A model generated the notes under the pieces. It saw nothing but the letters and a program-made list of their open reading frames with translations. It was not told where the DNA came from and searched no databases. Shown piece by piece: positions 14,946 through 54,469 of a stretch of 64,000 nt of DNA; position 1 is the stretch's first letter; the number at the start of each line of letters is the position of its first letter. A program made the translations under genes and the position numbers. The stretch is from Solidesulfovibrio carbinolicus (GTDB lineage Bacteria; Desulfobacterota; Desulfovibrionia; Desulfovibrionales; Desulfovibrionaceae): assembly GCF_004135975.1 (NCBI RefSeq), contig NZ_CP026538.1, positions 1,054,001 to 1,118,000 on the forward strand. The letters are read 5' to 3'.

Positions 14946-15281
14946 GTCCCATTCTACACGCTTTGGGGAATCCGTAAAGTGGATATTGGGTTCACGGGAT
15001 TTGGCCGTTTACTGCATTGTCCGTCCCGCCCGGGAGGGCGCGAACGTCTGGACCGCCGCAGTGCTGGCGCGGAATCTTTGCCCGGGTATTTCGCCGAGGG
15101 CGGCAGGACGGCGTTGCGAGGCGTTGTTTCGCCCGCTTGGGGAGTGTTGCCCGGAGCGGAGGGTGTTGCCCACATGTCCCAGGGGTGCTAACAATGGTTG
15201 TAATAACCACGACGGAGGAGGGTTGACCCGTCACCGGTTCGGAGCCTTCGGGTCGTGCGTGAGCGGGTAGAGGGGAATTCC
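14946..15281. other. Intergenic region upstream of the giant kinase
   Basis: Between the mucR promoter and the kinase start there is no supported gene; the overlapping frames have no coding bias. Immediately before the kinase ATG is GAGGGG with six-base spacing. No clear -35/-10 pair for the kinase was found. Confidence 0.5.
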
Positions 15282-21200: not shown

Positions 21201-21356
21201 ACGCCCATCGTGGCCATGACCGCCTACGCCATGGCCGGGGACCGGGAAAAGTTTCTGGCCGCCGGCATGGACGACTACGTGAGCAAACCCGTGGACGCCA
21301 AGGAACTGGAGCGGGTGTTGGCCCGGGTGACCGGACACGGGCAAACAGCGGAGTAG
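15282..21356 (+). CDS. CheB-like/CheR-multi-PAS-GAF hybrid sensor histidine kinase
   Basis: A protein of about 2024 residues. Order: degenerate CheB-like domain (about 8-200); CheR methyltransferase (about 208-480) with SAM motif AACSTGEEAYSLAM and CRNFLIYL; glutamate-rich coiled coil (about 640-716, repeated NEEL); about six PAS domains (about 720-1446); GAF (about 1457-1630); HisKA with phosphoacceptor His1655 in MSHEIRTPLNG; HATPase (about 1760-1883); receiver (about 1900-2020) with Asp1947 in LMDVQMPVMDG. It would sense several inputs, methylate a partner glutamate and run an internal phosphorelay. The catalytic Ser and His regions of CheB are not conserved. ATG 15282 is chosen over GTG 15255 because GAGGGG is spaced six bases from it. 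Confidence 0.92.
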   Translation: MVVALSVDREEASGTGFPVAGVVAGDAGRLGNFLAALPADCAAAVVVLADGQDPWELAALAGPDRLPVAAAENGARLAAGTVYLASARDGWTVAGGQLRQHSPGPADDPVDLFFVSLARECGACAVAILLDGDVTAGVRAVRAAGGLVLAAGGAQDVPDAFAGPWSGAAPDAVLPPAAMGAALAAYWSGLGCGAPGDPPAVQTDPRQTELEHAALGRVRELLAALAGHDAQAYKTGTLLRRCKKRMLLAASPSLADYADRLAGDPDELDRLFDDMLIGVTAFFRDPEAFALIENTALPDILGRLEPGEVMRVWAAACSTGEEAYSLAMLLAERPEVRQGRRAIKLFATDIDAKALETARRGVYHARHAAVLSPARREAFCRPSGDACQMARQLRESMVFAQHNLLRDPPFLGMDLIVCRNFLIYLNPEAQAKVLSLFAHALRPGGYLLLGPAEAIGSAQAFFDTVDKSWRLFRRMPATAAVPSPTRFVPPPALAHPSLAPLRAVAPNHEGLAEASLLARYAPPSVLVTPQEQIVRLVGDLNPFLELAPGEPSLSLGKLVKKTLRPAVREVLAAVARDGGEQAAGPASLPGFAGGVLVRGLPVADAWGNQAFTLLVFELQAAGPAVAAAATPPPPEQVELVVRYETALERLGDDLGRAVSRYETLTEELRAANEELVGANEELQSSNEEMDASREELQSLNEELNFVNAELQRKVDELAQARGFVENLLAAANVPTLVLDASLSVVRFTPATTCLFYFAPTDIGRPIANIKTTFEGSHLLDDCRQVLAGAGIIEREVRCEDGRWFVLRAYPFRSPEGAVDGVVLTFGEVTALKEAEAVLRRGQAELEELVARRTEELREKARLLDLAPVMVRDLDGRITYWNTGAQELFGYAPEEALGQVSWELLSTEFPQPVPVIMEELLQKGRWTGELHKRSKDGRFIDLAVTWVLNRDAASRPVSILEVASDVTERNRLEEQARRWDRVFQSAEFGLAHVNAKDNTFIEVNPAFARQRGYEPDELLGKPLFQLIPEEDRLRVGQAIAGFDAAGHGVVETEHIRKDGSRFPVLVEVTTLRDAAGATISRVAYALDISERKQAEEALRDMARFPGENPNPVLRVLPDFTVAYANPASLEPLETLGGAPGQLLPEALRPLAAAAFGQGVRASGEIGVGSRLFAFFVQPVAGRGYANAYGLDITERKRAEAALAASEARYHGLFEAMAEGMCLLAMVRDANGQVVDYRILDVNPGYAAILGVAREQAIGGSVREIYGMDAPPNLDVYGRIVETGRPETFETYFPPLRKHLGISAMRTGPDQFAVVFEDATARVEATNALARSEERLRQLVESAPDAIMVQCQGRFALVNPAAARLFGAASPEALLGRDIVSMMHPDSREIVRQRIRDVNEGRRPQPLVELRYQRLDGAFVDVEAVAVPFEFQGQPSSLVFSRDITERVRAAEEKRRQDALTEAVSRIQGAYVSGQSAEAIFAAALAEVVAATDSRFGYVAELVEDVPGRPVQRLLAVSDLGWEAVSASMLSPDEARSLIFDATDGLLAAACQTGGPVIANDPAGDPRSSGRLPEGHPSLEAFLGLPLQHGQECVGAIGLANRQGGYDAALAEQIRPLAEACARIIERLRLDRRLIAAKKAAEAASRSKSEFLANMSHEIRTPLNGVLGMLQLLDGTDLDAEQGEYVDNAVKASKRLTRLLSDILDLSLVESGRLVIRQEAVDPADLRGAVMDLFSLPAREKGLSLSVGLDPSLPGRLWADEARLRQILFNLVGNAVKFTDAGGVSVHIAPASRRFDAGFHLLITVSDTGIGIPDDELGVIFEPFGQVEGVYVRRFGGAGLGLSIVRRLVRLMGGELAVESELGQGTSIHVSLPLARQSPAGHSAVQASAGPARGGLRPLLLLLAEDDAVSLMSFARMLEKAGHEVDVAENGAEAAAMAARKTYDCILMDVQMPVMDGVAATRAIRENAALGDRAATPIVAMTAYAMAGDREKFLAAGMDDYVSKPVDAKELERVLARVTGHGQTAE

Positions 21357-37083: not shown

Positions 37084-39102
37084 CTACCAGTATGTCGTCT
37101 CGTCCCGGCACAGCCGCCGGTCGCGGGGGATGGGGCGCAGGGCGTTTCGGGCGGCCAGTCGGGCGGCCCACCAGCCCTCGTAGTCGGCGATGTTCTGGAC
37201 CTCGGTCCCTTCGTGGTCAAAAGCGCTGCCCACTTCCAGATAGACGTCGAGGTTGGCCAGGTCCGGGCGGGGCAGACTACCGGCTTCATGGTCGCGCCAC
37301 ATGGCTTCGTAAAGGTCTTCCAGGCCGCGCACCAAGCCCGGCATGTCGAAAAGCACGCAGGAATCCTTGCCGGCGGCCAGCCGCTCCCGCAACGGGGCAA
37401 GGCTTGCCCGGTCGTTGCCGTAGGCCACGGCCCGTTCGACATAGTCCTGGGTGGTTTCGCACACCAGTTCCGGCAACCCGGCCGCGCGCACCAGACTGCC
37501 GCACACCCGCGAGGCAAAAGACCGGCCGCTGACGGTCAGGACCGGCACCCCCGACCACAGGGCGTCGGAGGCGGTGGTGTGCGCGCCGTAAGGCGTGGTG
37601 TCCAGAAACAGGTCGGCCAGGGGATAGCGGGCCAGATGGGCGGCGTTGGCGGTCTTTTTGGCGAAAACCAGCCGCTCCCGGGCGACGCCCTTGGCCGCAG
37701 CGTAGTCGGAAAGACGCGTGCTCACGCCCTCCTCGCCGCCAAGCAGCCACAAAACGCTCTCCGGCACGCGGGCCAGGATTTCCAGCCAGCGGTCGAAGGT
37801 GGCCCGGTGGATCTTGTGCGCGCCGTTGAAGCAGCAAAAGACCATGGCCTCCTCGGGCAGCCCGGCCTCGGCCCGGCTGGGCTTGTGGTCGGCCACGGTC
37901 CGAAAGCGGTTGCTTGGTTGGTAGCAGGGCAGGCGCAGCACCTTTTCCGAGAAATAGCCCTCATGCCCGGGCGGCACGATCCAGTCGTCGGCGATGAGGT
38001 AGTGGTGGTAGGGGCTGCCCATGGTGCCGGGATAGCCCAGCCAGTTGACGATGACCGGGGCCGGGCGCAAGGCCACGAGCTTTAAACGCGCGTCGCGGGT
38101 GTAGCCATTTAAATCGACAAGGATCTGGAGGCCGTCGTCGGCCATGAGCTTGGCCGCCGCCGCGTCGTCCAGGTGGCTGATGACCCGGAAATGGTCGCTT
38201 GCGGCCTGGAAATGGGCATGCATGGCGTCGGGGGAGTCCACGCCGCAGTAGTAGCTGAAGACTTCGACCCGGGAGCGGTCATGAAGCCCCGGCACCTCGG
38301 TCATGAGGTAGCCCACGGCGTGCTCGCGCAGGTCCGAGGACAGGTAGCCCACCCGCAGCGGGCCCTCGCCCTCCCGGACCGCTCCGGGCCAGGCCGTCAT
38401 GGTTCCGGCCGGCGAACCCACGTCGATCTGGTTGTAGTGGGCGGCCAGGGCCAGTTGCCACAGCGGGTCGTCGGTGAAGGCCCCGGCCGACAGCGGCGAC
38501 ATGCCGCGCACCAGCACCCCGGCGTCGAAGCGCTCGCCCGGCTCAAGGATAGGCCATTTGCACTGGCGCTGGCGCAGGGCCACCAGATGCTGCACCACCT
38601 CGGACTGGTTACGGTCGAGTTCCAGGCTTTCGCGCAGCATGGTCTCGGCCGGATCGTCCTGGCTGACGGCTTCCAGGGCCCGGGCGCTCTGGTTAAGGGT
38701 CGTGACTTTGTGGGACACGGCCGAGGGGTTGACCGCGGCCATGCGGGCTAACGCCGCCGACCATTGGACGATGGCCAGCCCGATCTTGCCCTGGCGTTCC
38801 AGCACCCGGCCGAGGTTGATGTAGGCCGGCATGAAGTCGGGGCTTAAGCCAATGGCCTGTTCCAGGGCCTGCTGGGCTTCGACGATCTTGCCGCTGTCGG
38901 TGAGCGCCACGGAATAGTTGAATAAAACAGCGTAGAGCAGCGGGTCCTGAGGATGGCTGGCGACCCAGGCGGCGTAGGCCGCCTCCACCGAGGCGAGCTG
39001 GCCGCTTTGCTTGAAGGTTTCCGTGGTGCGGATGAGGTCCGGGACGGAAAGTCCCGCCACCATGGACTGGATCAGGGCCGGAGACAGCACGTCTTTGAGC
39101 AT
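37084..39102 (-). CDS. TPR-containing GT41 (O-GlcNAc transferase-like) glycosyltransferase
   Basis: A 672-residue protein. Residues about 35-175 are TPR-like helices (TGKI/ALEQAIGLSPDFMPAYINLGRVLERQGK). The GT41 catalytic region spans about 248-600: VGYLSSDLREH with His261, ILVDLNGYTRDAR, APVIVNWLGYPGTMG, CCFNGAHKIH with Lys430, and DTTPYGAHTTASDALWSGVP with HTT at 508-510. These match human OGT motifs. Such enzymes transfer a sugar from UDP-GlcNAc or another nucleotide sugar onto Ser/Thr (or Asn in HMW1C) of proteins in the cytoplasm. It starts 154 bases after the giant Ser/Thr-rich repeat protein, the obvious candidate substrate. Confidence 0.93.
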   Translation of the reverse strand: MLKDVLSPALIQSMVAGLSVPDLIRTTETFKQSGQLASVEAAYAAWVASHPQDPLLYAVLFNYSVALTDSGKIVEAQQALEQAIGLSPDFMPAYINLGRVLERQGKIGLAIVQWSAALARMAAVNPSAVSHKVTTLNQSARALEAVSQDDPAETMLRESLELDRNQSEVVQHLVALRQRQCKWPILEPGERFDAGVLVRGMSPLSAGAFTDDPLWQLALAAHYNQIDVGSPAGTMTAWPGAVREGEGPLRVGYLSSDLREHAVGYLMTEVPGLHDRSRVEVFSYYCGVDSPDAMHAHFQAASDHFRVISHLDDAAAAKLMADDGLQILVDLNGYTRDARLKLVALRPAPVIVNWLGYPGTMGSPYHHYLIADDWIVPPGHEGYFSEKVLRLPCYQPSNRFRTVADHKPSRAEAGLPEEAMVFCCFNGAHKIHRATFDRWLEILARVPESVLWLLGGEEGVSTRLSDYAAAKGVARERLVFAKKTANAAHLARYPLADLFLDTTPYGAHTTASDALWSGVPVLTVSGRSFASRVCGSLVRAAGLPELVCETTQDYVERAVAYGNDRASLAPLRERLAAGKDSCVLFDMPGLVRGLEDLYEAMWRDHEAGSLPRPDLANLDVYLEVGSAFDHEGTEVQNIADYEGWWAARLAARNALRPIPRDRRLCRDETTYW

Positions 39103-39256
39103 GGCGGGTGGTCAATCCTTGCATGTTTGCGGCGTGGACGCGCTTTCGCGCCCCGGGTTACGGAGCACAGCCGTTTTCCGGGGTGAAATTGCGTCCATTG
39201 CCTGTCACGGCCGCCGCCTGGAAAAATGCCTCGGCGTCAAGGCCTGCCCTGCTGCC

Positions 39257-42200
39257 TTAGGCCAGGGCGCTTTGTATGGCGGCCAGCTGTTCCGATGTCA
39301 TACCGGCCAGCTGGGTCGTTGTAAACGCATCGATTTGGGTGGCGTTTAAGGCTTCCAGTTCGGTGGTCGTCAACTGGGCGATGGTGGTGGCGGACAGCCT
39401 GGACACCGTGGTGGTGGTCAGACCCGCCAGCTGGTTGGCCGAAAGCGCACCGATCTGGGTGGCGTCCATGGTTCCGAGCTGGGTGGCGGTGAGCGCCCCG
39501 ACCTGGGTCGAGGAGAGCGACGCCAGCTGGGCGGCGGTCAGGCTGGTCAGCTGCGTGCCGGCCAGGTTGCCCATCTGGGTGGCGCTAAGCGACGCCAGCT
39601 GGCTGGTGGACAGGGCCTTCACCTGCTCGCTGCCCAGGGCCCGCAGCTGCATCCGCTCCAGTCCGTCGATTTGGGTCACGGTCAGATCGGCGATCTGGTC
39701 CGCGGACAGCGAGGCGATGGCCGTGGGAGTCAGCGCCCCGATCTGGCTGGAGGTCAGGCCGGCGAATTGGGTTTCGGTCATGCCGTCGAGCTGGGTCGGG
39801 GTGAGGCCGGCCACGCCCAGGGTGGACAGGGCGCTGATCTGGTGCGCGCTCAACGCGGCGAACTGGGTTGTGGTCAGGGCGGCGGTCTGGGCGGCGGTCA
39901 GTCCGCTTAAGGTCGTGGTCGACAGCAGCTTCACCTGATCGGTGGTGAGGCTTCCGATCTGGGCGGCGGTCAGTCCCGAGACGCCGGTGGCCGAGAGGCT
40001 GCTGAACTGGGTGGTGGTCAGGGCGGCCAGTTCGGTGGTGGTCAGCCCGGCCACGGCCGTGGGCGTCAGCGCAGCGATCTGGGTGGCGGTCATGGCCGCC
40101 AGCTGGGTCAGGGTCAGGCCGGCGACCTGGCTCGCGGTCAGGCCGGACACGGCCGAGGTGGACAGCTGGGCCACCTGGGCGGCGGTGAGCCCGGCGATCT
40201 GGGCGGCGGTCAGGGCGGCGGCCTGGCGCGAGGTCATGCCGCCGAGTTCGGTCTTGGACAGGGCAGCGATCTGGCTTGTGCCCAGGCTGGCGATTTGGGT
40301 CGTGGTCAGGGCGGCCATGCCCGTGGCCGAAAGGCTGGCGATCTGGGCGGTTGTCAGGGCGGCCAGGGTCGTGGTGGACAGGCCGGCCAGGGCGGTGGTG
40401 GACAGGGCGTCCATCTGGCCGGCGGACAGCGCCGCCAGCTGCTCGCCGGAGAGGCTTTCAATCTGGGCGGCGGTCAGGCCGGCCACGCCGGCGTCGGCCA
40501 GGGCGGCGATCTGGGTGGTGCGAAGCGCCCCGATCTGGGTGGTGGACAGCGCGCCCACGCCCGTGGCGGTCAGGCCGGCCACCTGGGCAGCGGTCAGGTT
40601 GCGCAACTGGCTGGTGGTGAGTCCGGCCATTTGCGTTGTGGTCAGGGCGGCCATCTGGGTGGCGGCCAGGGCGGCCATCTGCTTGGTGGACAGGGCGGCC
40701 AGGGCGGTGGCGGTCAGGCCCGGGACGGCCGTGGTCGAAAGCTTGGCGATTTGGGTGGTGGTCAGGGCGGCCAGCTGGGTTTCGCCCATGGCGGCCAGCT
40801 GGGTGGAGGTCAGCCCGGCCACTTGCGTCGTGGTCAGGGCGGCGGTCTGGGCGGCGGACAGGGCGGCCAGCTGGGTGGCGGCCAGGCTGCCGATCTGGCT
40901 GGCGGTCAGGGCGGCCAGCTGGGTGGCGGCAAGCGCCTGGACGCGGCTGGTGGGCAGGGCGGCCAGTTGGGTGGCGCTCAGCCCGGCCATTTGCGTGGCG
41001 GTCAGGGCGGCGAACTGGCTGGTGGACAGGGCCGCGAACTGGGTTGGCGTCAGCCCGGCCACGGCCGTGGCGGACAGGGCCTTGGCCTGGGTGGTGGTCA
41101 GGGCGGCCATCTGGGTGGCGGACAGGGCCGCGACCTGGCTGGAGGTCAGGCCGCCGATTTCCGTGGCGGTCAGCGCGCCGAGCTGGGTGGCGTCGAGGCT
41201 ACTGATCTGGGTGGTGGTCAGCCCGGCCATCTGGGTGGGGGTCAGGGCGGCCAGTTGCCGGGTGCTCAGGGCGTCGAGCTGGGTCTCGCTTAAGCTTGCC
41301 AGGGCGGTGGTCCCAAGCCCGGCCATCTGGGTCACGGTCAGGCTGCCGAGCTGGGTGGCGTTGAGGGCGGCCATGAAGGTGGCGGTGAGCTTGCCAAGCT
41401 GGGTGGTGCTCAGGGCCGTCAGCTGGGTATCGGCCAGGGCGGCGATCTGGGTCGCGGTCATGGCTTCGAAGGCGTTGGCCGAAATGCCCCGGATCTGGGT
41501 CTGGGTCAGGGCGGCGATCTGGCTTACGACCAGTCCGCTCATCTGTGTTTCGGACAGCGCGCCGATCTGGACGGCGGTGAGCTGGCGCAGCTGGGTGGTG
41601 GTCAGGGCGGCCAGCTGGCCGGCGGTCAGCCCGGACACGGCGTCGGTGGACAGCGCGGCGGTCTGGGTGCCCGACAGGGCGGCAATCTGGCTGGTGGACA
41701 GGGCCGCGACCTGGGTTTCGGTCAATCCGGCGATTTCCGTGACCGTCAAAAGCCCCATCTGGGTCGTGGTCAGGGAGGAAAGCTGGCTGGCGGTCAGGGC
41801 CGCGAACTGGGTGGCGGTGAGCGCGGTCATCTGACGGGTGGTCAGGGCGGCCAGCTGGGACTCGGTCAGGCCGGCCACGGCGCTGGTGGACAGGCTGGCC
41901 ATCTGGGCCGTGCCCAGGGCGGCCAGCTGGGTGGTGGAAAGCTGGGCGATCTCGGTGGAGGTGAGCGCCTGGATCTGGCTGGTGGCCAGGCTGGAAATCT
42001 GGGTGGCGGTAAGCGAGCCGAGCTGGGTGGCGGTCAGGGCGGCCATGCCCGTGGCGCTGATGGCCCGCAGCTGGGTGGTGGTCAGCGCCGCCAGCTGGGC
42101 GGTGGTCAGGGCGGCGACCTGCTCGGCGTCAAGGCCGGCGATCTGGTCTGCGGTCAGGGCGGCCAGCTGGCTGGCGGACAGGGCCGCGATCTTGGTCGGC

Positions 42201-45200
42201 GTGAAGCCGTCAATGCCGGCCACGGTCAGGGCGGCCAACTGGCTGGCGGACATGGCGGCCAGTTGGGTGAAGCTGAGCGAGGCGACCTGGGTGTCGCTCA
42301 TGCCGCTGAGCTGGGTGGCGGTCAGGGCGGCCAACTGGCTGGTGGACAGGGCCGCGGTCTGGGTTTCGGTCAGCGCGCCGATCTGGGTGGAGGTCAGGGC
42401 GGCGGACTGGGTGGCGGCCAGGGCAGCCAGCTCCGTGGTGGTCAGGGCGGCCACGGCCGTGACGGACAGGGCCGCGATCTGGGTCGTGCCGAGGGCGGCC
42501 AGCTGGGTGAGGCTCAGCGCCGCGATCTGGCTGCCGGTCAGGGCGGCCATGTCGGCGGTGTCCAGGGCGGCAATCTGATTGGCTGTCAGGCTGGCCAGGC
42601 TGGTGGTGGACAGCGCCGCCACCGCCGTGCCGGTCATGGCCGCGACCTGGGTCGGGGTCAGGCCGGCCAGCTGTCCGGGAGTCAGGGCGGCGGCCTGGGT
42701 TTCGGTGATGCCGCGCAGTTGGGTGGCGGTCAGCCGTCCCCACTGGGTGGTGGTGAGCGCGCCGAGCTGGGTGGTGGTGAGCGCGCCGATCTGGGTGGCG
42801 GTCAGGGCCGCGAGTTGGGTGTTGGACAGGGCGGCCAGGGCGGTGGCGGACAGGCCGGCCAGGGCCGTGGCCGACAGGGCCGCGATCTGGGTGGCGGTCA
42901 AGGCCGCGATCTGGCTTTCCGGCATGGCGGCCAGCTGGGTGGAGGTCAGGTTGCCGACGCCGGTGGCGGTCAGGGCGGCCAACTGGGTGGCGGACAGGGC
43001 GGCCAGCTGGTCGGCGCTGAAGTCGCTGATCTGGGTGGCCGACAGCCCCCGCAACTGGGTGGTGGTGAGGCTGCCCATCTGGGTGGTGGTCATGGCCGCG
43101 ATCTGGCTGTCGCTTAAAGCCGAAAGTTCCGTGGCGGTCAGGGCCGCGATCTGGCTCGGTGCCAGAGCCGCCACCTGGGTGGTGGTCAGTCCGGCCACGG
43201 CCGTGGCGGAGAGGGCGGCGATCTGGCTGGTGGACAGTCCGGCCAGCTGGCTGGTGGTCATGGACCCGATCTGCACGCCGTCAAGTCCGGCCAGGGCGGC
43301 GGGGGTCAGTCCGGCCAGCTGGGTGGCGGTCAGGGCGGCCATCTGCCCGGTGGTCAGCCCGGCGACCTGGGTGGCGGTCATGGCCGCCAGCTGGGCGGCG
43401 CTCATGGCCGCGAACTGGCTGGTGGTCAGGCCGGCCACGGCCGTGGCGGTCAGGGCCGTGATCTGGCTGGCGGACAAGGCGGAAAGCTGGGTGGCGCTGA
43501 GTTGGCCAAGGCCGGTGGAGGTCAGGCCGGCCAGGGCCGTGGTGGTCATGGCGGCCAGTTGCGTGGTGGTGAGGGCGGCCAGTTGGGACTGGTTCATGGC
43601 GCCGACCACGGTTGCGGACAGCCCCTTGACCTGGGTGGTGGTGAGCACGCCGATCTGCTCGGCGGTCATGCCGGCCAGGGCCGTGGCGGTCAGGGCCGCG
43701 AACTGGGCGGCGGTCAGGGCGGCCAGTTGGGTCGCGCCCAGTTCGGCCATGTCGTCGGCGCCAAGGCCGGCGATCTGGGCGGCCGTCAGGCTGGCCAGCT
43801 GGGTCCGGGACAGGGCGGCCATCTGGGCGGCGGACAGGGCGCTCACGTCGGCGGCCGGCAGGGCGCGCAACTGGGTGGTGGTCAGGGCGGCCACCTGGGT
43901 GGCGGTCAGGGCGGCGGCCGTGGTGGAGCTCATGGACGCCAGCTGGGTGGTGGTGAGGCCCTTGATCTGGGTCGCGGACAGGGCGGCCACCTGGGTGGCG
44001 TCCAGGGCGGTCAGGGCCGTGGTGGACAGGGCCGCGACCTGAGCGGCGGACAGGGCGGCCAGCTGGGTCACACTCAAGGCCCGCACGGCGGTTTCCGTGA
44101 GTCCGGCCACGGCCGAGACGGACAGGCCGGCGATCTGGGCCGGGGTCATGACGGCGGTCTGGGTGCCGTCGAGGCCCGAACCGGACGTCTTGGTCAGGCT
44201 CTTGAGCTGGGCGGCGGACAGGGCGGTCAACTGCTCGGCGGTCAGGCTGCCGATGGCATCGTGGCTCAGGGCGGCCAGTTGCGAGGTGGTCATGGCGGCC
44301 AGGTCGCTGGCGGTCAGTTCGGCCATGTCGGTGGTGGTCAGGCCGGCGATTTGCGTGGCGGCCAGGCTGGCCAGCTGGGTGTCGGACAGGGCGGCCATCT
44401 GTTCGGCGGACAGGGCCGACAGGGCGGTGGAGGACAACCGGCGCAGCTGGGCGGTGCTCAGGGCGGCGAGCTGGGCCGGAGTCAGGCCGGCGGCCGTGGC
44501 GGGGTCGAGGCCGGCCAGCTGGGCGGCGGTCAGGCCCGAAAGCTGGGTGGTGGTCAGGCCGGCGATCTGGGTCGAGGACAGCCCGGCCAGGGAGGTGGTG
44601 GTGAGCGACGCGATTTGGGTCGGGGTCAGGGCGGCCAGCTGGGTTTCGGACAGCGCGGCCAGGCTCGTGGCGGTCAGGGCGGCCAGGGCGGCGGCGCTTA
44701 AGGCGGCGACCTGGGCGGCGGTCATGGCGGAAAGCTGCGTGGTGGACAGGGCGGCGGCCTGGGTGGCGGTCAGTCCCTTGGCCTGGCTGGCGGAAAACCC
44801 GGCCAGCTGGGTTTCGCTCAAGCCGCCAAGGGCGGTGGTGGTCAGGCCGGAGAGCTGGGTGGCGGTCAGGCCGGCGATCTGGGTGGCGGTCAGCTCGGCG
44901 ACGTCGGTCTCGCTCAGGCCGGCCAGTTGGCCCGAGGACAGGGCGGCCAGCTGGGTGGCGGAAAACGCGGCCATTTGCTCGGCGCTCAGCGCCGAGAGGG
45001 CCGTGGCGGACAAGCCGCGCATCTGGGTGGTGGTGAGGCTGGCCAGTTGTTGGCTGGTCAGGCCGGCGGCGGCGTCGGTGGTGATGACCACCATTTGCAG
45101 GGCCGAGAAGCGGGCCAGCTGGGTGATGGTGAGGCTGCCGAGCTGGTCGGCGGACAGGGCGTTGACCTGAAGCAGGGTCAGGGCGGAAATCTGGGCGGTC

Positions 45201-47701
45201 CCCAAACCGGAAAGCTGGGTGGTGGTCAGGTTGGCGATCTGGGTGGTGGTCAGTCCGGCCACGGCGGTGGTGGACAGGGAGCCGAGGAAGGTCGCGTCCA
45301 GGGCGGCCAGCTGGGTTTCGTCCAGGGCGGCCACGGCGGCGCTGCTTAAGGACCGGATCTGCGTGGCGGTAAGGCTTTGGAGCTGGCTGGCGTCCAGACC
45401 CTTGGCGGCGGTGGCGGTGAGCGCGCCGACCTGGGTGGCGGACAGGGCGGCCAGGGTGGCGGCGGACAGTTCGGCGGCGTCGGCGCTGGTCAGACCCTTG
45501 AGCTGCGTGGCGGTCAGCACGGCGATCTGGGTGGCGGTCAGGGCGTCCATCTGGGTGGAGGTCAAGCGGCTTATGGCCGTGGCCGTGAGCGCCTTGATCT
45601 GGGTGGTGGTCAGGGCGGCGATCTGCGTGATGGTCAGGGCATCGACGGCGGTCATGGACAGCCCGGCGATTTGCGTGGCGGTGAGGCTGGCCAGTTGGGC
45701 GGTGGTCATGGCCGCGAGCTGGCTCTCGGTGACGGCACCGGCCTGGGCGGCGGTCATGGCCGCGATCTGGGTGGTGGCCAGGGCGGCGAACTGGGTCTCG
45801 GTGAGGCCGGTGATGGCCGTGATGGAAAGCCCTTTGATTTGGGTGGTGGTGAGCGCCGCGACCTGAGTGGCGGCCAGGGAGGCGAACTGGGTCTCGGTGA
45901 GGCCGGCCAGGGCGGCGGCGGTCAGTCCCTTGACCTGGGTGGTGGTCAGGGCGGCCAGCTGCGTTTCGGAAAGCCCGGCCAGGGCGGTGGCGGTCAGCGA
46001 GGCCAGCTGGGTGCTGGAGAGGCTGGCCAGCTCGGTGGTGGTCAGTTCGGCCATGTCCGTGGCCGTGAGCGCCTTGATCTGGGTGGCGGTCAGGGCGGCC
46101 AGCTGGACGGCTGACAAGGCGGCCATCTGCTCGCCGGAGAGCTGGCTCACGGCGGCGGCGGACAGAGCCCGCACCTGGGTGGTGGACAGGGCAGCCAATT
46201 CCTCGGTGGTCAGCCCGGCCGCGGCCGTGGCCGTGAGGCCGGCCATCTGGGTGGCGGTCAGGGCCTTCACCTGGCTTGTGGACAACGAACCGACCTGGTC
46301 GGCCGAGAGGTTTTTGACCTGGGTGGCGGTGAGGGCGGAAATCCGGGTGGCGTCGAGGGCGGCCAGTTGGGTGACGGCCAGGCTGGCGATGACCGTCGTA
46401 GTGAGCTTGGCCACGGCGGTGGCGGACAGGGCGGCGAATTGTTCGGATGACAGCGCGGCCACCTGGCCGGCGGACAGGGCGGCCGCGCCGGTGGCGTTGA
46501 GGGCGGCCAGTTGGGTGGTGGTGAGGCTGGCCAGCTGTTCTTCGGTGAGTCCCTTGATCTGGGTGGCGGTCATGGCGGCCATCTGGGTGGTGGTCAGGGC
46601 AGCCAGGCTGGTGGTGGTGAGTTCGGCCATGTCCGTGGCCGAGAGTCCCTTGATCTGGGTGGCGGTCATGGCGGCGAGCTGGGTTTCGGACAGGCTGGCG
46701 GCCTGGGTGCCGGACAGGGCGCTGAGCCAGGTGGCGCGAAGGGCCGTAATCTGGGTGGTGGTGAGGCAGGCCAGCTGGCCCTGGTTCAGGGCGGCGATGG
46801 CCGTGGTGCTCAGCGAGGAAATCTGGGTTCCGGTCATGGCCCCGATCTGGGTGGCAGTCAGGGCGGCGGTCATGTCGCCGTCAATGGCGGCGATCTGGGC
46901 GGTGGTCAGGGCGGCGACCTGGGTGGCGCTCAGGCTGGCCAGCTGGTCGGGGCTCATGGCCGCGACCGTGGCGGTCGAGAGGGCCTTGACCTGGGTAGAA
47001 TTGAAGGCGGCCAGCTGGTCCGCGGAGAACGAAGCCGCCTGGGTGGCGGTGAAAGCGGCCACGCAGAGGTTGGACAGGGCGGCGATCTGGACGGTTTCAA
47101 GGCCGGCGACCTGTTCCTCGGTCAGGCTGCTGATCTGGGTGGCGGTCAGGCCCTTGACCTGGGTGGCGGTCAGAGCGTCGAGGTGGGTTTCATCCAGGCT
47201 GCCCACGGCTGTGGCGGAAATGGCCTTGACCTGGGTGGCGGTCAGGGCGCCCAGCTGATCGACGCTCAGTGCGTTGATCTGGGTGGCGGAAAGCGCGGCC
47301 ATCTGGGTGGCGCTCAGGGCAGACAGCTGGGTGGTGGACAGGGCGGCCAGCTGGGTGGTGGTCAACGAGGCGATCTGGGTGGTGGTCAGCTCGCGAATGT
47401 CGGAGGCGGTGAGTCCGGCCAGCTGGGTGGGGGACAGGGCGGCAATTTCGTCCTCCGCGAACACGGCGATCTGGGTCTTGGTCAGGGCGGAGAACTGGGC
47501 TGCGCTGAAGTAGACGAGCTGGTCGATGGTCAGCGCCTTGGCCTGGCCCGTGGTCAGGGAGGCCATCTGGACGGTGCTGAGCGCCTCGACCTGGGTTTCC
47601 AGGAGATCGGCGAAATCCGTGGCGGCAAGGGAGCGAAGCGCCGTCGTCGTCAGGGCGGCGATGGCTTCGGCCGAATAGGAGGATATGGGGGCTACGCTCA
47701 C
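39257..47701 (-). CDS. Giant octapeptide-repeat protein, 2814 residues
   Basis: Start is GTG 47701 with AAGGAG nine bases upstream. After about 15 residues the whole protein is a run of eight-residue units, consensus A/G-L-S/T-x-T-Q-I/L/V/M-A, 349 units with no phase slip, ending AIQSALA. Hydrophobic positions 2 and 7 and an S/T-x-x-Q cap suggest a short-helix solenoid; this is inference. It has no signal peptide, membrane segment or recognised domain, very few Cys, and is very rich in Ser, Thr, Ala, Leu and Gln. A surface or structural role is plausible; a repeat-poor secretion signal is not seen. It lies between a methyltransferase gene and the GT41 gene on the same strand. Confidence 0.9.
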   Translation of the reverse strand: MSVAPISSYSAEAIAALTTTALRSLAATDFADLLETQVEALSTVQMASLTTGQAKALTIDQLVYFSAAQFSALTKTQIAVFAEDEIAALSPTQLAGLTASDIRELTTTQIASLTTTQLAALSTTQLSALSATQMAALSATQINALSVDQLGALTATQVKAISATAVGSLDETHLDALTATQVKGLTATQISSLTEEQVAGLETVQIAALSNLCVAAFTATQAASFSADQLAAFNSTQVKALSTATVAAMSPDQLASLSATQVAALTTAQIAAIDGDMTAALTATQIGAMTGTQISSLSTTAIAALNQGQLACLTTTQITALRATWLSALSGTQAASLSETQLAAMTATQIKGLSATDMAELTTTSLAALTTTQMAAMTATQIKGLTEEQLASLTTTQLAALNATGAAALSAGQVAALSSEQFAALSATAVAKLTTTVIASLAVTQLAALDATRISALTATQVKNLSADQVGSLSTSQVKALTATQMAGLTATAAAGLTTEELAALSTTQVRALSAAAVSQLSGEQMAALSAVQLAALTATQIKALTATDMAELTTTELASLSSTQLASLTATALAGLSETQLAALTTTQVKGLTAAALAGLTETQFASLAATQVAALTTTQIKGLSITAITGLTETQFAALATTQIAAMTAAQAGAVTESQLAAMTTAQLASLTATQIAGLSMTAVDALTITQIAALTTTQIKALTATAISRLTSTQMDALTATQIAVLTATQLKGLTSADAAELSAATLAALSATQVGALTATAAKGLDASQLQSLTATQIRSLSSAAVAALDETQLAALDATFLGSLSTTAVAGLTTTQIANLTTTQLSGLGTAQISALTLLQVNALSADQLGSLTITQLARFSALQMVVITTDAAAGLTSQQLASLTTTQMRGLSATALSALSAEQMAAFSATQLAALSSGQLAGLSETDVAELTATQIAGLTATQLSGLTTTALGGLSETQLAGFSASQAKGLTATQAAALSTTQLSAMTAAQVAALSAAALAALTATSLAALSETQLAALTPTQIASLTTTSLAGLSSTQIAGLTTTQLSGLTAAQLAGLDPATAAGLTPAQLAALSTAQLRRLSSTALSALSAEQMAALSDTQLASLAATQIAGLTTTDMAELTASDLAAMTTSQLAALSHDAIGSLTAEQLTALSAAQLKSLTKTSGSGLDGTQTAVMTPAQIAGLSVSAVAGLTETAVRALSVTQLAALSAAQVAALSTTALTALDATQVAALSATQIKGLTTTQLASMSSTTAAALTATQVAALTTTQLRALPAADVSALSAAQMAALSRTQLASLTAAQIAGLGADDMAELGATQLAALTAAQFAALTATALAGMTAEQIGVLTTTQVKGLSATVVGAMNQSQLAALTTTQLAAMTTTALAGLTSTGLGQLSATQLSALSASQITALTATAVAGLTTSQFAAMSAAQLAAMTATQVAGLTTGQMAALTATQLAGLTPAALAGLDGVQIGSMTTSQLAGLSTSQIAALSATAVAGLTTTQVAALAPSQIAALTATELSALSDSQIAAMTTTQMGSLTTTQLRGLSATQISDFSADQLAALSATQLAALTATGVGNLTSTQLAAMPESQIAALTATQIAALSATALAGLSATALAALSNTQLAALTATQIGALTTTQLGALTTTQWGRLTATQLRGITETQAAALTPGQLAGLTPTQVAAMTGTAVAALSTTSLASLTANQIAALDTADMAALTGSQIAALSLTQLAALGTTQIAALSVTAVAALTTTELAALAATQSAALTSTQIGALTETQTAALSTSQLAALTATQLSGMSDTQVASLSFTQLAAMSASQLAALTVAGIDGFTPTKIAALSASQLAALTADQIAGLDAEQVAALTTAQLAALTTTQLRAISATGMAALTATQLGSLTATQISSLATSQIQALTSTEIAQLSTTQLAALGTAQMASLSTSAVAGLTESQLAALTTRQMTALTATQFAALTASQLSSLTTTQMGLLTVTEIAGLTETQVAALSTSQIAALSGTQTAALSTDAVSGLTAGQLAALTTTQLRQLTAVQIGALSETQMSGLVVSQIAALTQTQIRGISANAFEAMTATQIAALADTQLTALSTTQLGKLTATFMAALNATQLGSLTVTQMAGLGTTALASLSETQLDALSTRQLAALTPTQMAGLTTTQISSLDATQLGALTATEIGGLTSSQVAALSATQMAALTTTQAKALSATAVAGLTPTQFAALSTSQFAALTATQMAGLSATQLAALPTSRVQALAATQLAALTASQIGSLAATQLAALSAAQTAALTTTQVAGLTSTQLAAMGETQLAALTTTQIAKLSTTAVPGLTATALAALSTKQMAALAATQMAALTTTQMAGLTTSQLRNLTAAQVAGLTATGVGALSTTQIGALRTTQIAALADAGVAGLTAAQIESLSGEQLAALSAGQMDALSTTALAGLSTTTLAALTTAQIASLSATGMAALTTTQIASLGTSQIAALSKTELGGMTSRQAAALTAAQIAGLTAAQVAQLSTSAVSGLTASQVAGLTLTQLAAMTATQIAALTPTAVAGLTTTELAALTTTQFSSLSATGVSGLTAAQIGSLTTDQVKLLSTTTLSGLTAAQTAALTTTQFAALSAHQISALSTLGVAGLTPTQLDGMTETQFAGLTSSQIGALTPTAIASLSADQIADLTVTQIDGLERMQLRALGSEQVKALSTSQLASLSATQMGNLAGTQLTSLTAAQLASLSSTQVGALTATQLGTMDATQIGALSANQLAGLTTTTVSRLSATTIAQLTTTELEALNATQIDAFTTTQLAGMTSEQLAAIQSALA
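39281..47656 (-). repeat. 24-bp coding repeat array, 349 units
   Basis: The DNA repeats every 24 bases in phase with the octapeptide. Because the period is a multiple of three, the other strand and the other frames stay open over long stretches, giving many false antisense frames. It is not a CRISPR array: there are no unique spacers. Confidence 0.9.
43745..46624 (-). repeat. Five-fold higher-order repeat of 576 bp (24 octads) inside the giant gene
   Basis: A marker octad ending D-[MVA]-A followed by E-L recurs at residues 359, 551, 743, 935, 1127 and 1319, each exactly 192 residues apart. In DNA the same marker begins at 46621, 46045, 45469, 44893, 44317 and 43741, exactly 576 bp apart. Neighbouring octads (EQMA, then two or three before the marker) recur as well. 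Past 43.7 kb the register changes. Confidence 0.85.
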
Positions 47702-47923
47702 GGCTTGGGACTCCTTGCGAGGGATGAAACAGCTTTCCCGGCCAACGCCGGCCGGGGGGAAATTTTTTCCCGCTCTGCCGGCCCTGGCGTATGCCTCGCA
47801 AGAAAAGCGCCAAGAAGACGCTCCTATCGAGCTTTCCGATAATTCAAGACTGATTGGGGAAACGCGTGCCCAGGGCGCGGGAGCATCGCCGTGCGACCGC
47901 CGGGGTGGCGGTCGGACGCCGGC

Positions 47924-49000
47924 TCAGCCCTTGGGGCCGGGTTCGGGATAGCGCAGGGAGCCGACCAGATCGGCCGGGGCGAGTCGGGACCAGTCGAAGT
48001 CCGGCACGTCGCGGGTTTTGCGGCACAGGATTTCGCTGTGGCAGTAAAGCCCGGTGACGGGGCGGCCGCGCAGATAGGGATCGGCCAGGGAGGAAAAGCG
48101 GCCCACGATAGGATTGGACAGGCCCGCCTCCAGGCACTCGAAGCCCAGGGCCGGGGAGAACAGCGCCCGTAGCGCCATGTCGCTGTACTGGAAAAAATGC
48201 CAGGGCCGCTCGTGAGAAGAAAAGGAGAAGTGGGTCTCCAGGGCCAGATGTCCTCCCAGTTTGAGGCATTTGGCCATTTCCACGGCTGCGACCCAGGGCA
48301 TGGCCAGGTGTTCCAGCACGGCAAAGGAGACGATGAGGTCAAAGGGCTCGTCAAAATAGGCGGAGAGTCGGTGAGCGTCGCCCACCACATCCACGTTTTT
48401 GCCGGGGTAATAGTCGAAGCCGACGTAGGTGGCCGTATCGAACCGCTCCCGGCCGCGCGGCCCCCGGCCCTCGGCCGTGACGGCCCGACTGCCCACTTCG
48501 AGCACCCGCAGGCCCGGACGGTTGCCCAGGGAAACCACATGGTCCCAGAAGTTGGCATGGGACAGGGCCTCGGCCATGGGGACATCCTGGTGGAGGTAGA
48601 CATGGTCATGGGCGGCGTCGGACACGGCGTCCATGGGAACCACGGAAAGCCGGGCCAGGACGGTCTCCCGGCTTGGGGAGCAGGCCACGAGGCTCGCCTC
48701 GGCAAAATCCGGGACCACGGCGTCGAAGCCCCGGCAAGGCGGCAGGGCGCGGCCCTCCTTGGCCAGCCGTCGGGCCACGTCGGGTCGGGCGTGCCGCAGT
48801 TCCAGAGGCGCTTGGCCGTTGTCGGCGCGGAGAACGAGGCGCGGGGCGTCGGCCTCGGGAGCAGGCGCGGCCCAGCCGACGAGGCGCAAGCCGCGCGAGC
48901 GGTCGACGACGGCCCGGTGGCGGGGGCAGTCCAGGCCAAAGCCGGCCAGGCCAGGGTCGCTTGCGGCGGCGTGGGCGATGACGATGCCGTGATGTTGCAT
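47924..49000 (-). CDS. SAM-dependent methyltransferase with N-terminal accessory domain
   Basis: A 358-residue protein. The methyltransferase core occupies about residues 150-290: LRVLEVGSRAVTAEG (SAM motif I), YVGFDYYPGKNVDVVGDAH, and FDLIVSFAVLEHLAMPW. An N-terminal region (residues 1-115) looks like a beta-rich accessory domain. ATG 49000 is chosen with GGAG seven bases upstream; the longer frame has no support. It lies 222 bases before the giant repeat gene on the same strand, so it may modify the same product, for example by methylating a glycan. Substrate not known. Confidence 0.88.
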   Translation of the reverse strand: MQHHGIVIAHAAASDPGLAGFGLDCPRHRAVVDRSRGLRLVGWAAPAPEADAPRLVLRADNGQAPLELRHARPDVARRLAKEGRALPPCRGFDAVVPDFAEASLVACSPSRETVLARLSVVPMDAVSDAAHDHVYLHQDVPMAEALSHANFWDHVVSLGNRPGLRVLEVGSRAVTAEGRGPRGRERFDTATYVGFDYYPGKNVDVVGDAHRLSAYFDEPFDLIVSFAVLEHLAMPWVAAVEMAKCLKLGGHLALETHFSFSSHERPWHFFQYSDMALRALFSPALGFECLEAGLSNPIVGRFSSLADPYLRGRPVTGLYCHSEILCRKTRDVPDFDWSRLAPADLVGSLRYPEPGPKG

Positions 49001-49398
49001 GGGCGTCTCCGGAAGGCCGTTGCGGTCGTTTCGTGACGGCCGGGCCACGGTAGGCGAGAAGCCCCCTGCAGACAAGACCGCGACGCGGCGGGAAATGGCC
49101 CTGGCTCCCGGGCTGTCCCGAAGTTCTGGCCGCCATTGGTCCGGCGACGGCTACGACAGGCGTTGGTCTTGCGTCGGAAAGGATGGCGCAGAAATGGTTT
49201 ATTATAATATTTATTCCATTTGTAATGATATTTCTCAATGGTTCGGGATGACGACGAGTTATTGTTGCCATGCGTGGATAGTCGTGGGTGTAGAGCTGGT
49301 AAAGATAAACGTTTCTCTTGATTTTCATTGCCTGGGTGCTAGTGTGTGCCAAGCTGTTTTGTTTTCGCAGTCGTCTGTCAAACTACGAGGAGGAGCGT
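49001..49398. other. A/T-rich divergent intergenic region
   Basis: This 398-base gap separates the methyltransferase and the small exported protein. It is strikingly A/T-rich at 49195-49240, with TATAAT at 49204-49209. A candidate promoter for the small gene is TTGATT (49318-49323), 16 bases, TAGTGT (49340-49345) with an extended -10 TG. No further gene is supported. Confidence 0.5.
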
Positions 49399-53332: not shown

Positions 53333-54469
53333 CTAAGCCGCCTCGCCGCAGGCCAGCCGCACCAGGGCCATGGCCCGGCCCATTTCGGCGGTCAGTCCCG
53401 GATCGGCCAGGGCGTCGGCCAGGACGGCGTCGCGGATGAGAAACCGGTAGGAATGCCGCAGCGGCACGATGCCCGCCGCGTCGTCCTCCTCCAGGGCCAG
53501 GGCCAACCCTTCGGCCAGGGCCACGGCCACGGCCAATCGGGCTTCGGCCAGCCCGGCCCCCCCGTCTTCCAGTTCGACCCAGCCCGGCCCGTGGTGCAGG
53601 CGCACGGCCTGCCCCACGGCGGCCGGCAGCTCGAAGCGTTGGCACACGGCCCAGCCGGCCGCGCCGTGGTGGTCGCCCCAACACGCGACCTCTTCCTGGG
53701 GCGGCCGGCTGCGTCGCTCGGCCGCCCCGGCCGGCAGAGCCAGCTTGCCCACGTCGTGGAGCAGCCCGGCAGTGTAGGCCATGGCCGGATCAAGGCCGGG
53801 CAGGGCCGGGGCGATGCGCCGGGCCAGCACGGCCGTGCGGGCCATGTGGGTCACAAGCCCCTGCCTCGCTGCCCGGGACAGCCCGGCTTGGCTGCCGCCC
53901 TGTTCCAGAAGCTCGGAAAATACCAGCGCCTTCAAGTTGGCCAGGCCGATGACGGCCACGGCTTTTTCCACGTCGGCCAGTTGGCCGCGCAGGCCAAATA
54001 GCGGGCTGTTGGCGATGGTGAGCACCTGGCCGGCCAGGATCGGATCGGCCGAGACCAGCGAGGCCACCACGCCAAGAGGCGTGGCCGGGTCGCCCAGGCG
54101 GGCCAGCAAACCGCTGCCGGCGGCCAGCCCGCCCAGGCGCTTGGCGGCGGCGGCGACGGCCGGAGGGCTGGGGCGCGGCCTGGCGAACATGCCGGCGCAG
54201 CCGGGAGGCAGGGGCGTGGGTTCAGCGAAAAGCCGCTCCAGACCGAAGGCCAGGCGTTCCAGCATGTGCGCGGTCGTGGCCTCGGACAGGCCGGCCGGAG
54301 CCAACGGGTCGGTAGGGCCGGCCTTGGCGGCGAAAAAGGGCGTAACGGGCGGGCGGGACGCGGCCTTGGTCCGAAGCCAAGACGCGTCGCCGCGCCGCAA
54401 GCGCGGCAGCAGCACAGCCGCCCCCGCCGCCCCGCAAGCAGCGGCCAGGAGCGCATATTCCCATGGCAT
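53333..54469 (-). CDS. HDOD-domain signalling protein with N-terminal membrane anchor
   Basis: A 378-residue protein. Residues about 5-22 (YALLAAACGAAGAAVLLP) look like a membrane anchor. An HDOD domain starts near residue 110: ATPLGVVASLVSADPILAGQVLTIANSPLFGLRG, then AVIGLANLKALVFSELL and the HD-like segment GLLHDVGKLALP (about residue 229). HDOD proteins act in c-di-GMP-linked and stress signalling; metal-binding residues are only partly conserved. ATG 54469 is chosen because the anchor begins there; there is no good RBS, so the start is moderately sure. It is convergent with the kinase gene. Confidence 0.85.
   Translation of the reverse strand: MPWEYALLAAACGAAGAAVLLPRLRRGDASWLRTKAASRPPVTPFFAAKAGPTDPLAPAGLSEATTAHMLERLAFGLERLFAEPTPLPPGCAGMFARPRPSPPAVAAAAKRLGGLAAGSGLLARLGDPATPLGVVASLVSADPILAGQVLTIANSPLFGLRGQLADVEKAVAVIGLANLKALVFSELLEQGGSQAGLSRAARQGLVTHMARTAVLARRIAPALPGLDPAMAYTAGLLHDVGKLALPAGAAERRSRPPQEEVACWGDHHGAAGWAVCQRFELPAAVGQAVRLHHGPGWVELEDGGAGLAEARLAVAVALAEGLALALEEDDAAGIVPLRHSYRFLIRDAVLADALADPGLTAEMGRAMALVRLACGEAA

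Follow-up and report, generated by a model that had tools for sequence, protein, structure and literature searches.

A giant gene on the minus strand of Solidesulfovibrio carbinolicus contig NZ_CP026538.1 encodes 349 consecutive octapeptides of the ALTTAQ family and lies directly upstream of a gene for a glycosyltransferase 41 (GT41). The window analysed is the 64,000-nucleotide stretch from 1,054,001 to 1,118,000 of that contig, and all coordinates are given within it. Residue identities along the octads carry a hidden period of 3.42-3.43 octads, and charged residues form stripes at that period. We propose, with a probability of roughly 0.65, that the product forms a rod about 100 nm long that its own enzyme O-glycosylates, that leaves the cell, and that has fixed sides packing against something.

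In the proposed mechanism the octads would stack as short helices into a long solenoid rod with 3.425 octads per turn, and the paired TPR-GT41 enzyme would O-glycosylate Thr/Ser of the rod in the cytoplasm. The rod would then be exported, with type I secretion genes next to the repeat serving as the route in some lineages, and its fixed sides would probably dock onto other rods or a surface.

The octad array

39257..47701, minus strand: gene for the giant ALTTAQ-repeat (PF20080) protein, 2814 aa (GTG start; PF20080 profile; GC at codon positions)
47657..47701, minus strand: N-terminal 15 residues ahead of the octad array
39281..47656, minus strand: 349 in-phase octads, residues 16-2807 (phase-tracking parse)
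39260..39280, minus strand: C-terminal 7 residues past the last octad (orthologs end in similar short tails)
46601..46648, minus strand: marker octad pair 1 (octads 43-44)
46025..46072, minus strand: marker octad pair 2 (octads 67-68)
45449..45496, minus strand: marker octad pair 3 (octads 91-92)
44873..44920, minus strand: marker octad pair 4 (octads 115-116)
44297..44344, minus strand: marker octad pair 5 (octads 139-140)
43721..43768, minus strand: marker octad pair 6 (octads 163-164)

A sequence-only reading of this DNA had parsed residues 16-2807 by hand into 349 eight-residue units without a slip, and had described a marker octad recurring six times at 192-residue (576-bp) steps. Both points hold: a phase-tracking parse finds no register break within the array, and the marker D[MVA]A-EL occurs six times between octads 43 and 163 at a spacing of exactly 24 octads. 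Position 2 is L/M/F/I/V in all 349 octads, position 3 is T/S in 296, position 6 is Q in 250 and position 7 is L/I/V/M/F/A in 340. Octad similarity at lag 24 reaches z = 10.6 (the maximum over all lags in 500 shuffles of octad order is 4.87), and octad identity at this lag is 48.5% against a mean of 41.7% across lags. DNA self-match of the gene, proposed earlier as a check, is highest at 576 and 1152 bp. The recent block duplication that had been invoked for this step is not supported in the window gene: its DNA is 63.8% identical at the 576-bp offset, and no 192-bp stretch exceeds 78% at lag 24, although relatives do show recent copies of 24 or 48 octads.

The genome-collection scan returned at least 594 stretches, at least 498 of them confirmed, and the 76 best loci were used in the surveys below. 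These loci hold 90 register shifts in 21,331 octads. The earlier claim that strict register implies a solenoid intolerant of slips can thus be kept in a softened form, that of a few-slip solenoid: the structural models are helical and octad number is unchanged in five of eight complete genus orthologs.

The sequence-only reading knew of no named domain for the repeat. It belongs to Pfam PF20080, the ALTTAQ repeat, which scores 996 bits over the whole protein in 109 stretches (curated cut-off, 26.4 bits). The octad is the same, and the library entry gives a name only; no publication on ALTTAQ, PF20080 or HeliScrew was found in a search of the open-access literature. The closest solved chain by sequence (profile E 3e-28) is PDB 9zem, "HeliScrew4", a 120-aa chain whose name suggests a designed protein. 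It has the same octad period and L-T/S-x-x-Q/E-hydrophobic pattern, with about 14 octads only and Pro-Glu where the window repeat has Thr-Thr. The comparison was made by sequence; 9zem is not among the listed fold-search matches, which counts neither for nor against the likeness.

Other family assignments were rejected. Leucine-rich repeat (LRR) matches score far below 9zem and seem to reflect composition; the array has a period of 8, and its models contain no strands. Pfam matches to CAAP1, LRR_EndoS, Sigma70_r4_2 and DUF7785 include no separately significant stretch. Beta-solenoid or ice-nucleation-type octapeptides do not fit the two AlphaFold2 models (residues 1-240 and 352-591), which are all-helical. 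Serine-rich repeat proteins (SRRPs) are marked by an accessory Sec signal and an LPXTG-type anchor, neither of which is seen by eye in the window protein. NCBIfam and PHROGs hold no family matching the repeat, and one 112-aa repeat block has no match in the phage and plasmid collections; in BFVD four phage proteins match at E <= 0.001.

Predicted fold

AlphaFold2 modelled residues 352-591 (36 rows) with a mean predicted local distance difference test score of 96.0 and a predicted template modelling score of 0.87, and residues 1-240 (6 rows) with 94.3 and 0.83. In both, each octad forms roughly one helix of 4-6 residues, which starts at octad position 4, and strands are absent. The N-terminus is predicted to join the solenoid from about residue 6, and the N-terminal stretch is still recognisable in the distant loci L037 and L038 (labelled Myxococcota/Verrucomicrobiota). 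The product is thus predicted to be a single-domain alpha-solenoid rod with one short helix per octad. From the general rules of helix capping, Thr/Ser at position 3 would be the N-cap and Gln at position 6 its capping partner, while Leu at position 2 and the hydrophobic residue at position 7 would provide core contacts or a hydrophobic staple.

Among solved folds, Foldseek ranks mesothelin and ARM-type solenoids nearest, though weakly, and VIA matches are likewise weak. Mesothelin and ARM/HEAT solenoids align with the window model at template modelling scores of 0.2-0.4 and middling Z, which indicates a similar arrangement and not demonstrated kinship; mesothelin repeats are irregular, unlike the strict octads of the window protein.

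Pitch in the sequence and probable growth by whole turns

When residue identities along the octads are Fourier-transformed, the dominant period is 3.42-3.43 octads, both in the window and in all eight other genus rows (power 5.3-7.3; shuffle maxima 2.1-2.4). The phase of the stripe in the window stays confined to 115-159 degrees across all 349 octads. A wider survey covered 77 open reading frames (ORFs) of loci L032-L108, of at least 60 octads and with 60 shuffles each. Every ORF has a Fourier peak above all of its shuffles, and the top peak lies at 3.3-3.55 octads in 56 of the 77, with a median of 3.425. Read as structure, this would correspond to a rotation of about 105 degrees per octad, 3.425 octads per turn and about 102 turns over 349 octads. 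ARM-type solenoids have a spacing of about 1 nm per turn, so 102 turns would give a rod of about 100 nm.

This pitch would also account for the super-repeat. Since 24/7 = 3.43, a block of 24 octads makes 7.0 turns, and duplications of 24 or 48 octads would leave every residue on its side of the rod. Seven turns of the pitch, a feature absent from the sequence-only reading, are the likely cause of the 24-octad step.

Duplications, insertions and deletions are mostly of whole turns. The eight complete genus orthologs differ from the window by no octads in five cases (three of these orthologs are only 57-59% identical to it), by +31 octads in two (9.05 turns) and by -7 in one (2.04 turns). Recent duplications, defined as 192 bp at 90% identity or more, were found in 16 of the 76 ORFs tested (L046, with fewer than 70 octads, was excluded). 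In 14 of the 16 the main duplication lag deviates from a whole number of turns by no more than 0.1, where 20% would be expected (binomial 1e-8, kinship ignored); the exceptions are L055 (4 octads) and L059 (85 octads). Blocks of 17, 31, 34, 48, 55 and 62 octads also lie within 0.1 turn of whole numbers. In the even sample of genomes described below, duplications are of 24 octads in L153, L154 and, weakly, L155, and of 62 octads (18.1 turns) in L156.

Several observations weigh against this interpretation of the pitch. It is read from sequence and not from coordinates, and the helix lengths in the AlphaFold2 model carry no such signal (power 1.96 at 0.292; the highest value, 4.35, is at 0.420); a link between helix length and pitch was dropped on these values. 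The top peak lies outside 3.3-3.55 octads in 21 of the 77 ORFs: 18 at exactly 2 octads, L044 at 2.40, and L059 and L088 near 8.5. The 3.2-3.7 band still exceeds the shuffle maximum in 19 of these 21 and falls below it in L046 and L055. Some secondary duplication lags are not whole turns.

The 18 ORFs with a 2-octad top peak (L047, L058 and L066 among them) often have Gly at position 1, a pattern for which the 3.425 pitch gives no explanation. An ORF of exact 2-octad period is that of L055 (Magnetococcales HCHbin5; G071 C92:27095-35212), which has at least 704 octads, a different unit (GLTSTQLD) and recent 4-octad copies. The same genome has a 3781-aa frame with several successive GT41 matches.

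Charge stripes

Angles around the rod were measured with the octads lacking Gln at position 6 set to 0 by definition. In the window, the centre of K/R at position 8 lies at -110 degrees and that of D/E at positions 4/5 lies at +101 degrees, these angles being octad phases and not side-chain azimuths, as positions 4/5 and 8 face different directions within each octad. Thr at position 5, Thr/Ser at position 4 and Thr at position 3 show no angular preference in the window. Among the 49 ORFs with at least 100 octads, 12 K/R and 12 D/E, both stripes are present (nR2 > 3) in 43, where 0.33 would be expected from octads shuffled within Gln and non-Gln classes. Over these 43 loci the K/R stripe falls between -29 and -177 degrees in 39 and the D/E stripe between +25 and +124 degrees in 40.

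Every octad of a perfect screw is equivalent, and a modulation at the pitch would therefore imply that the sides are fixed. Such sides could reflect packing with other rods, docking on a surface or a non-round cross-section. With a non-Gln stripe, a K/R stripe and a D/E stripe, the rod probably packs against other rods or a surface.

The GT41 enzyme, a probable partner

37084..39102, minus strand: gene for a TPR and glycosyltransferase 41 (OGT-like) protein, 672 aa, 154 nt downstream of the repeat gene

This neighbour was not mentioned in the sequence-only reading. It matches the Glyco_transf_41 profile with 278 bits (cut-off 25), has TPR_12 at residues 93-164 ahead of the catalytic part, and is the only PF13844 gene found in the genome. 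By phmmer it matches human OGT at 7e-91 and XcOGT at 6e-82.

Within the genus, the GT41 gene lies directly downstream of the repeat gene in all 11 loci whose 3' end is on the contig (the window and ten others), and seven of the ten relatives have no close match to the window's other tested neighbours in the fetched stretch. Genome G010 has neither the repeat nor a GT41 of the partner type, other GT41s being present, and G007 (89% complete) has neither the repeat nor any PF13844 match. Across the 76 loci, linkage was counted on stop-to-stop frames; seven loci were set aside at contig or locus ends, and a GT41 gene lies within 300 nt of the repeat in 55 of the 69 testable. It is downstream on the same strand in 51 of these, upstream and divergent in three, and upstream on the same strand in one. 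A GT41 gene is farther off in two of the 76.

A tree of 99 GT41 rows, built by a quick method, places 66 of 67 adjacent enzymes in one clade of 74 rows (Shimodaira-Hasegawa-like approximate likelihood ratio support 100). Seven clade rows were first labelled non-adjacent. Of these, L132 and L134 lie beside a second repeat ORF, L128 lies divergently beside one, and L136 is identical to the adjacent enzyme of L075; the contig of L138 is 5.8 kb long, and the 18-19 kb fetched for L129 and L147 contain no repeat. A profile of 12 clade rows scores clade members at 937 bits or more and the other listed matches at 516 or less.

An even sample of 241 genomes from the Alphaproteobacteria, the class to which G062 (Pseudoroseomonas deserti) belongs, with up to four GT41 candidates scored per genome, contains four genomes with clade enzyme and repeat, two with the repeat only, none with the enzyme only and 235 with neither (Fisher 1e-7; 4e-6 without the centre genome). 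Besides the centre genome, the two genes are adjacent in G248 and about 5.8 kb apart in G223 and G304. Taken together, the data suggest that the GT41 enzyme is most likely a dedicated partner of the repeat protein.

Against such a partnership, 12 of the 76 loci have no GT41 gene in the fetched stretch, and the 76 are the best matches to a genus query, so 55 of 69 overstates linkage across the family. The adjacent enzyme of L100 falls outside the clade. The even sample yields few positives, and two of its six repeat-bearing genomes lack the clade enzyme.

Eight Roseomonas-like loci (L049, L062, L073, L077, L079, L080, L092 and L096) have a second GT41 gene, of another clade, adjoining the first; glycosylation may there involve two enzymes. 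In L156 (genome G248) one clade GT41 gene is flanked by two repeat ORFs, one cut by the end of the fetched stretch, and G248 has a third repeat ORF (L155) elsewhere.

Distribution

Of 59 genomes searched, 13 match: the source genome, 11 of the 13 from the same genus, and one, weakly (E 4e-4), from another genus of the family; 12 of the 13 exceed the cut-off. Alphaproteobacteria supply most of the best 76 loci, three of which are Solidesulfovibrio (L032, L033, L078); the remainder include Verrucomicrobiota, Acidobacteriota, Magnetococcales, one Burkholderiaceae and contigs labelled Marinimicrobia or Deltaproteobacteria. With the repeat in six of the 241 evenly drawn genomes, the family is patchy.

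Viral contigs L109-L113 carry ALTTAQ arrays of 53-148 octads with no GT41 gene found in the fetched stretch. L109 and L110 match phrog_15773 and L113 does not; Thr at position 5 is scarce in all but L113. No viral contig matched the window GT41 gene. L108, an IMG/VR contig filed as viral, has a 352-octad repeat ORF and a clade GT41 whose nearest tree row is L084, an Alphaproteobacteria metagenome-assembled genome.

Control sites and other genes of the window

47711..47716, minus strand: Shine-Dalgarno-like AAGGAG, 9 nt ahead of the GTG start
47798..47812, minus strand: sigma-54-like site TGGCGCTTTTCTTGC, about 100 nt upstream of the repeat gene
39228..39243, minus strand: weak terminator-like hairpin between the repeat gene and the GT41 gene (consensus match only)

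The upstream site is named from the sigma-54 consensus. A scan recovers it in eight of 11 genus upstream stretches (the window, L021, L023, L024, L026, L027, L029 and L030). Automatic start-codon detection missed L020 and L024; by eye, in the printed alignment only, a GG-N10-GC match is present in L022 and L028 and the start of the box in L020. Terminator-like sites number four across the window, against 1.6 expected.

A methyltransferase gene upstream of the repeat gene (47924-49075, minus strand) was rejected as a member of the system, having no tblastn match at 1e-10 in 12 genus loci; it is unmatched even in L023, whose repeat protein is 95% identical. Elsewhere in the window, 15255-21356 (plus strand) encodes a 2033-aa CheB-CheR-PAS-histidine kinase-receiver fusion, and a tRNA-Ala call by ARAGORN at 54355-54437 (minus strand), within an HDOD gene and with an odd anticodon position, is probably false.

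Discussion

The rod could instead stay in the cell and serve as a scaffold, a ruler or part of the cytoskeleton, with the GT41 enzyme modifying or binding it there. By eye, the N-terminus of the repeat protein shows no signal peptide, and the fold is predicted to begin near residue 6; OGT-type enzymes act in the cytoplasm; and the constant octad number of five of the eight genus orthologs is ruler-like. The window has no HlyD and ATP-binding cassette (ABC) pair beside the repeat gene, the HlyD cluster is absent from 66 of the 76 loci, and genome G006 has the repeat and no type I adaptor above the cut-off. Type I substrates, however, require no N-terminal signal, and octad number ranges from 63 to 704 over the 76 loci, cut ORFs included.

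The neighbours of the repeat also argue for export. The ORFs of the 76 loci were clustered and representatives annotated. GT41 is found in 55 loci, and three further large clusters (55, 40 and 17 loci) lie mostly inside GT41 frames (105 of 106, 45 of 57 and 17 of 17 members). The next are an ABC transporter (14 loci), an HlyD-type adaptor (10), a nucleotide-sugar dehydratase/epimerase (10) and an FkbM methyltransferase (7); six other representatives have no Pfam match, and several of these look like alternative frames of the annotated neighbours. The adaptor representatives exceed the NCBI type I HlyD cut-off in all four loci tested (L046, L049, L081, L086), and for the ABC representatives (L049, L081, L086, L093) the best match is the type I HlyB model, at scores under its cut-off. 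Both genes adjoin the repeat in 10 of the 76 loci, every HlyD locus having an ABC member. In seven (L046, L049, L063, L073, L077, L079, L092; labelled Roseomonas-like, Acetobacteraceae or Rhodospirillales) they share the strand of the repeat and immediately precede it; the others are L081 and L086 (Acidobacteria) and L093. Type I adaptors above the cut-off are encoded elsewhere in 13 of 14 genus genomes, with three in the window's own. We consider a purely intracellular rod unlikely.

In a second alternative the repeat protein is not a substrate of the GT41 enzyme: the TPR part of the enzyme could act as its chaperone or escort it for export, or the two genes might simply belong to one pathway. 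The clade enzyme is missing from six genomes that have the repeat (L071, L094 and L104 come from three of them; the others are G109, G198 and the L091 genome, which has no GT41 match at all), and Thr at position 5 does not follow the enzyme strictly: its frequency is 0.74 in L104 and 0.58 in L091, both without the clade enzyme, and 0.21 in L059 and 0.12 in L088, which have it. On the other side, the His and Lys columns (H261, K430) that line up with human OGT, where these residues have a role, show no variation among 12 clade enzymes. Loci beside the enzyme have more Thr at position 5 (median 0.72 in 55 loci against 0.50 in 12, p = 8e-6, kinship ignored), and its frequency is low in L094 (0.15, in a genome with no GT41 match) and L157 (0.21). 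The mixed pattern makes position 5 at best a weak candidate for the target residue, and a non-modifying enzyme seems distinctly improbable to us.

The 24-octad step might also be an old duplication block, with the pitch of 3.42 octads an overtone that has no structural meaning. Such a block predicts a comb at k/24, and peaks near 5/24, 10/24 and 12/24 are indeed present. Of the 61 ORFs in which no recent duplication was detected, 46 nevertheless have their strongest peak near 7/24 (L046 being too short for the duplication test), blocks of several other lengths also fall near whole turns, and the charge stripes track the pitch, which makes an overtone very improbable. That GC-rich low-complexity sequence yields a long ORF by chance or as an antisense frame can be dismissed, since long antisense ORFs do overlap the gene but GC at codon positions 1/2/3 is 0.62/0.59/0.92, the 2815 codons in frame with L023 differ at 109/48/186 positions, with the third position differing most, and the ribosome site and promoter-like box are retained upstream in relatives.

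An exported, glycosylated rod with fixed sides is therefore the reading that we prefer. Tentatively, we would extend it to a broadly distributed yet patchy bacterial system in which an OGT-clade enzyme serving one giant substrate glycosylates a sided rod of tens to hundreds of nanometres. The rod would be exported by type I secretion, whose genes adjoin it in some lineages, and zipped into an ordered sheet, bundle or surface coat by neutral, basic and acidic stripes that keep phase over about 100 turns; lengthening mostly by whole turns would hold the sides in register. The ALTTAQ family has a name, and no described function was found for it in the open-access literature. The pairing gives the repeat a testable role as the substrate of an OGT-like enzyme, and a clade of bacterial OGTs one obvious substrate. 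The pitch amounts to a helical ruler obtained from sequence alone that predicts which duplications survive, and a rod with coded sides and adjustable length would be of interest to protein designers.

The name of the repeat family and the existence of dedicated enzyme-substrate pairs (FlmG-flagellin, SRRP, HMW1C) were already known. As far as the open-access literature shows, four features are new: the pitch, growth by whole turns, the charge stripes and the pairing with GT41; our search there found nothing on a repeat-GT41 system. HMW1 is likewise a large surface protein with its own enzyme, HMW1C, an N-glycosyltransferase, and its repeats are unrelated to ALTTAQ octads. Compared with the GT41 family of OGT, SPINDLY and XcOGT, to which the partner enzyme aligns over both TPR and catalytic parts, the enzyme forms a clade of its own tied to one repeat protein, whereas the OGT type is a general intracellular modifier. 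Serine-rich repeat adhesins again pair a large repeat surface protein with its own glycosyltransferase (PMC6973325); their repeats are unrelated to ALTTAQ and their export is by accessory Sec. A further parallel is FlmG of Caulobacter, a soluble two-part glycosyltransferase whose N-terminal part is argued to select a secreted Ser/Thr substrate before export (PMC7591256); there the substrate is flagellin and the sugar pseudaminic acid, where the present pair would join an OGT-like enzyme to an ALTTAQ rod.

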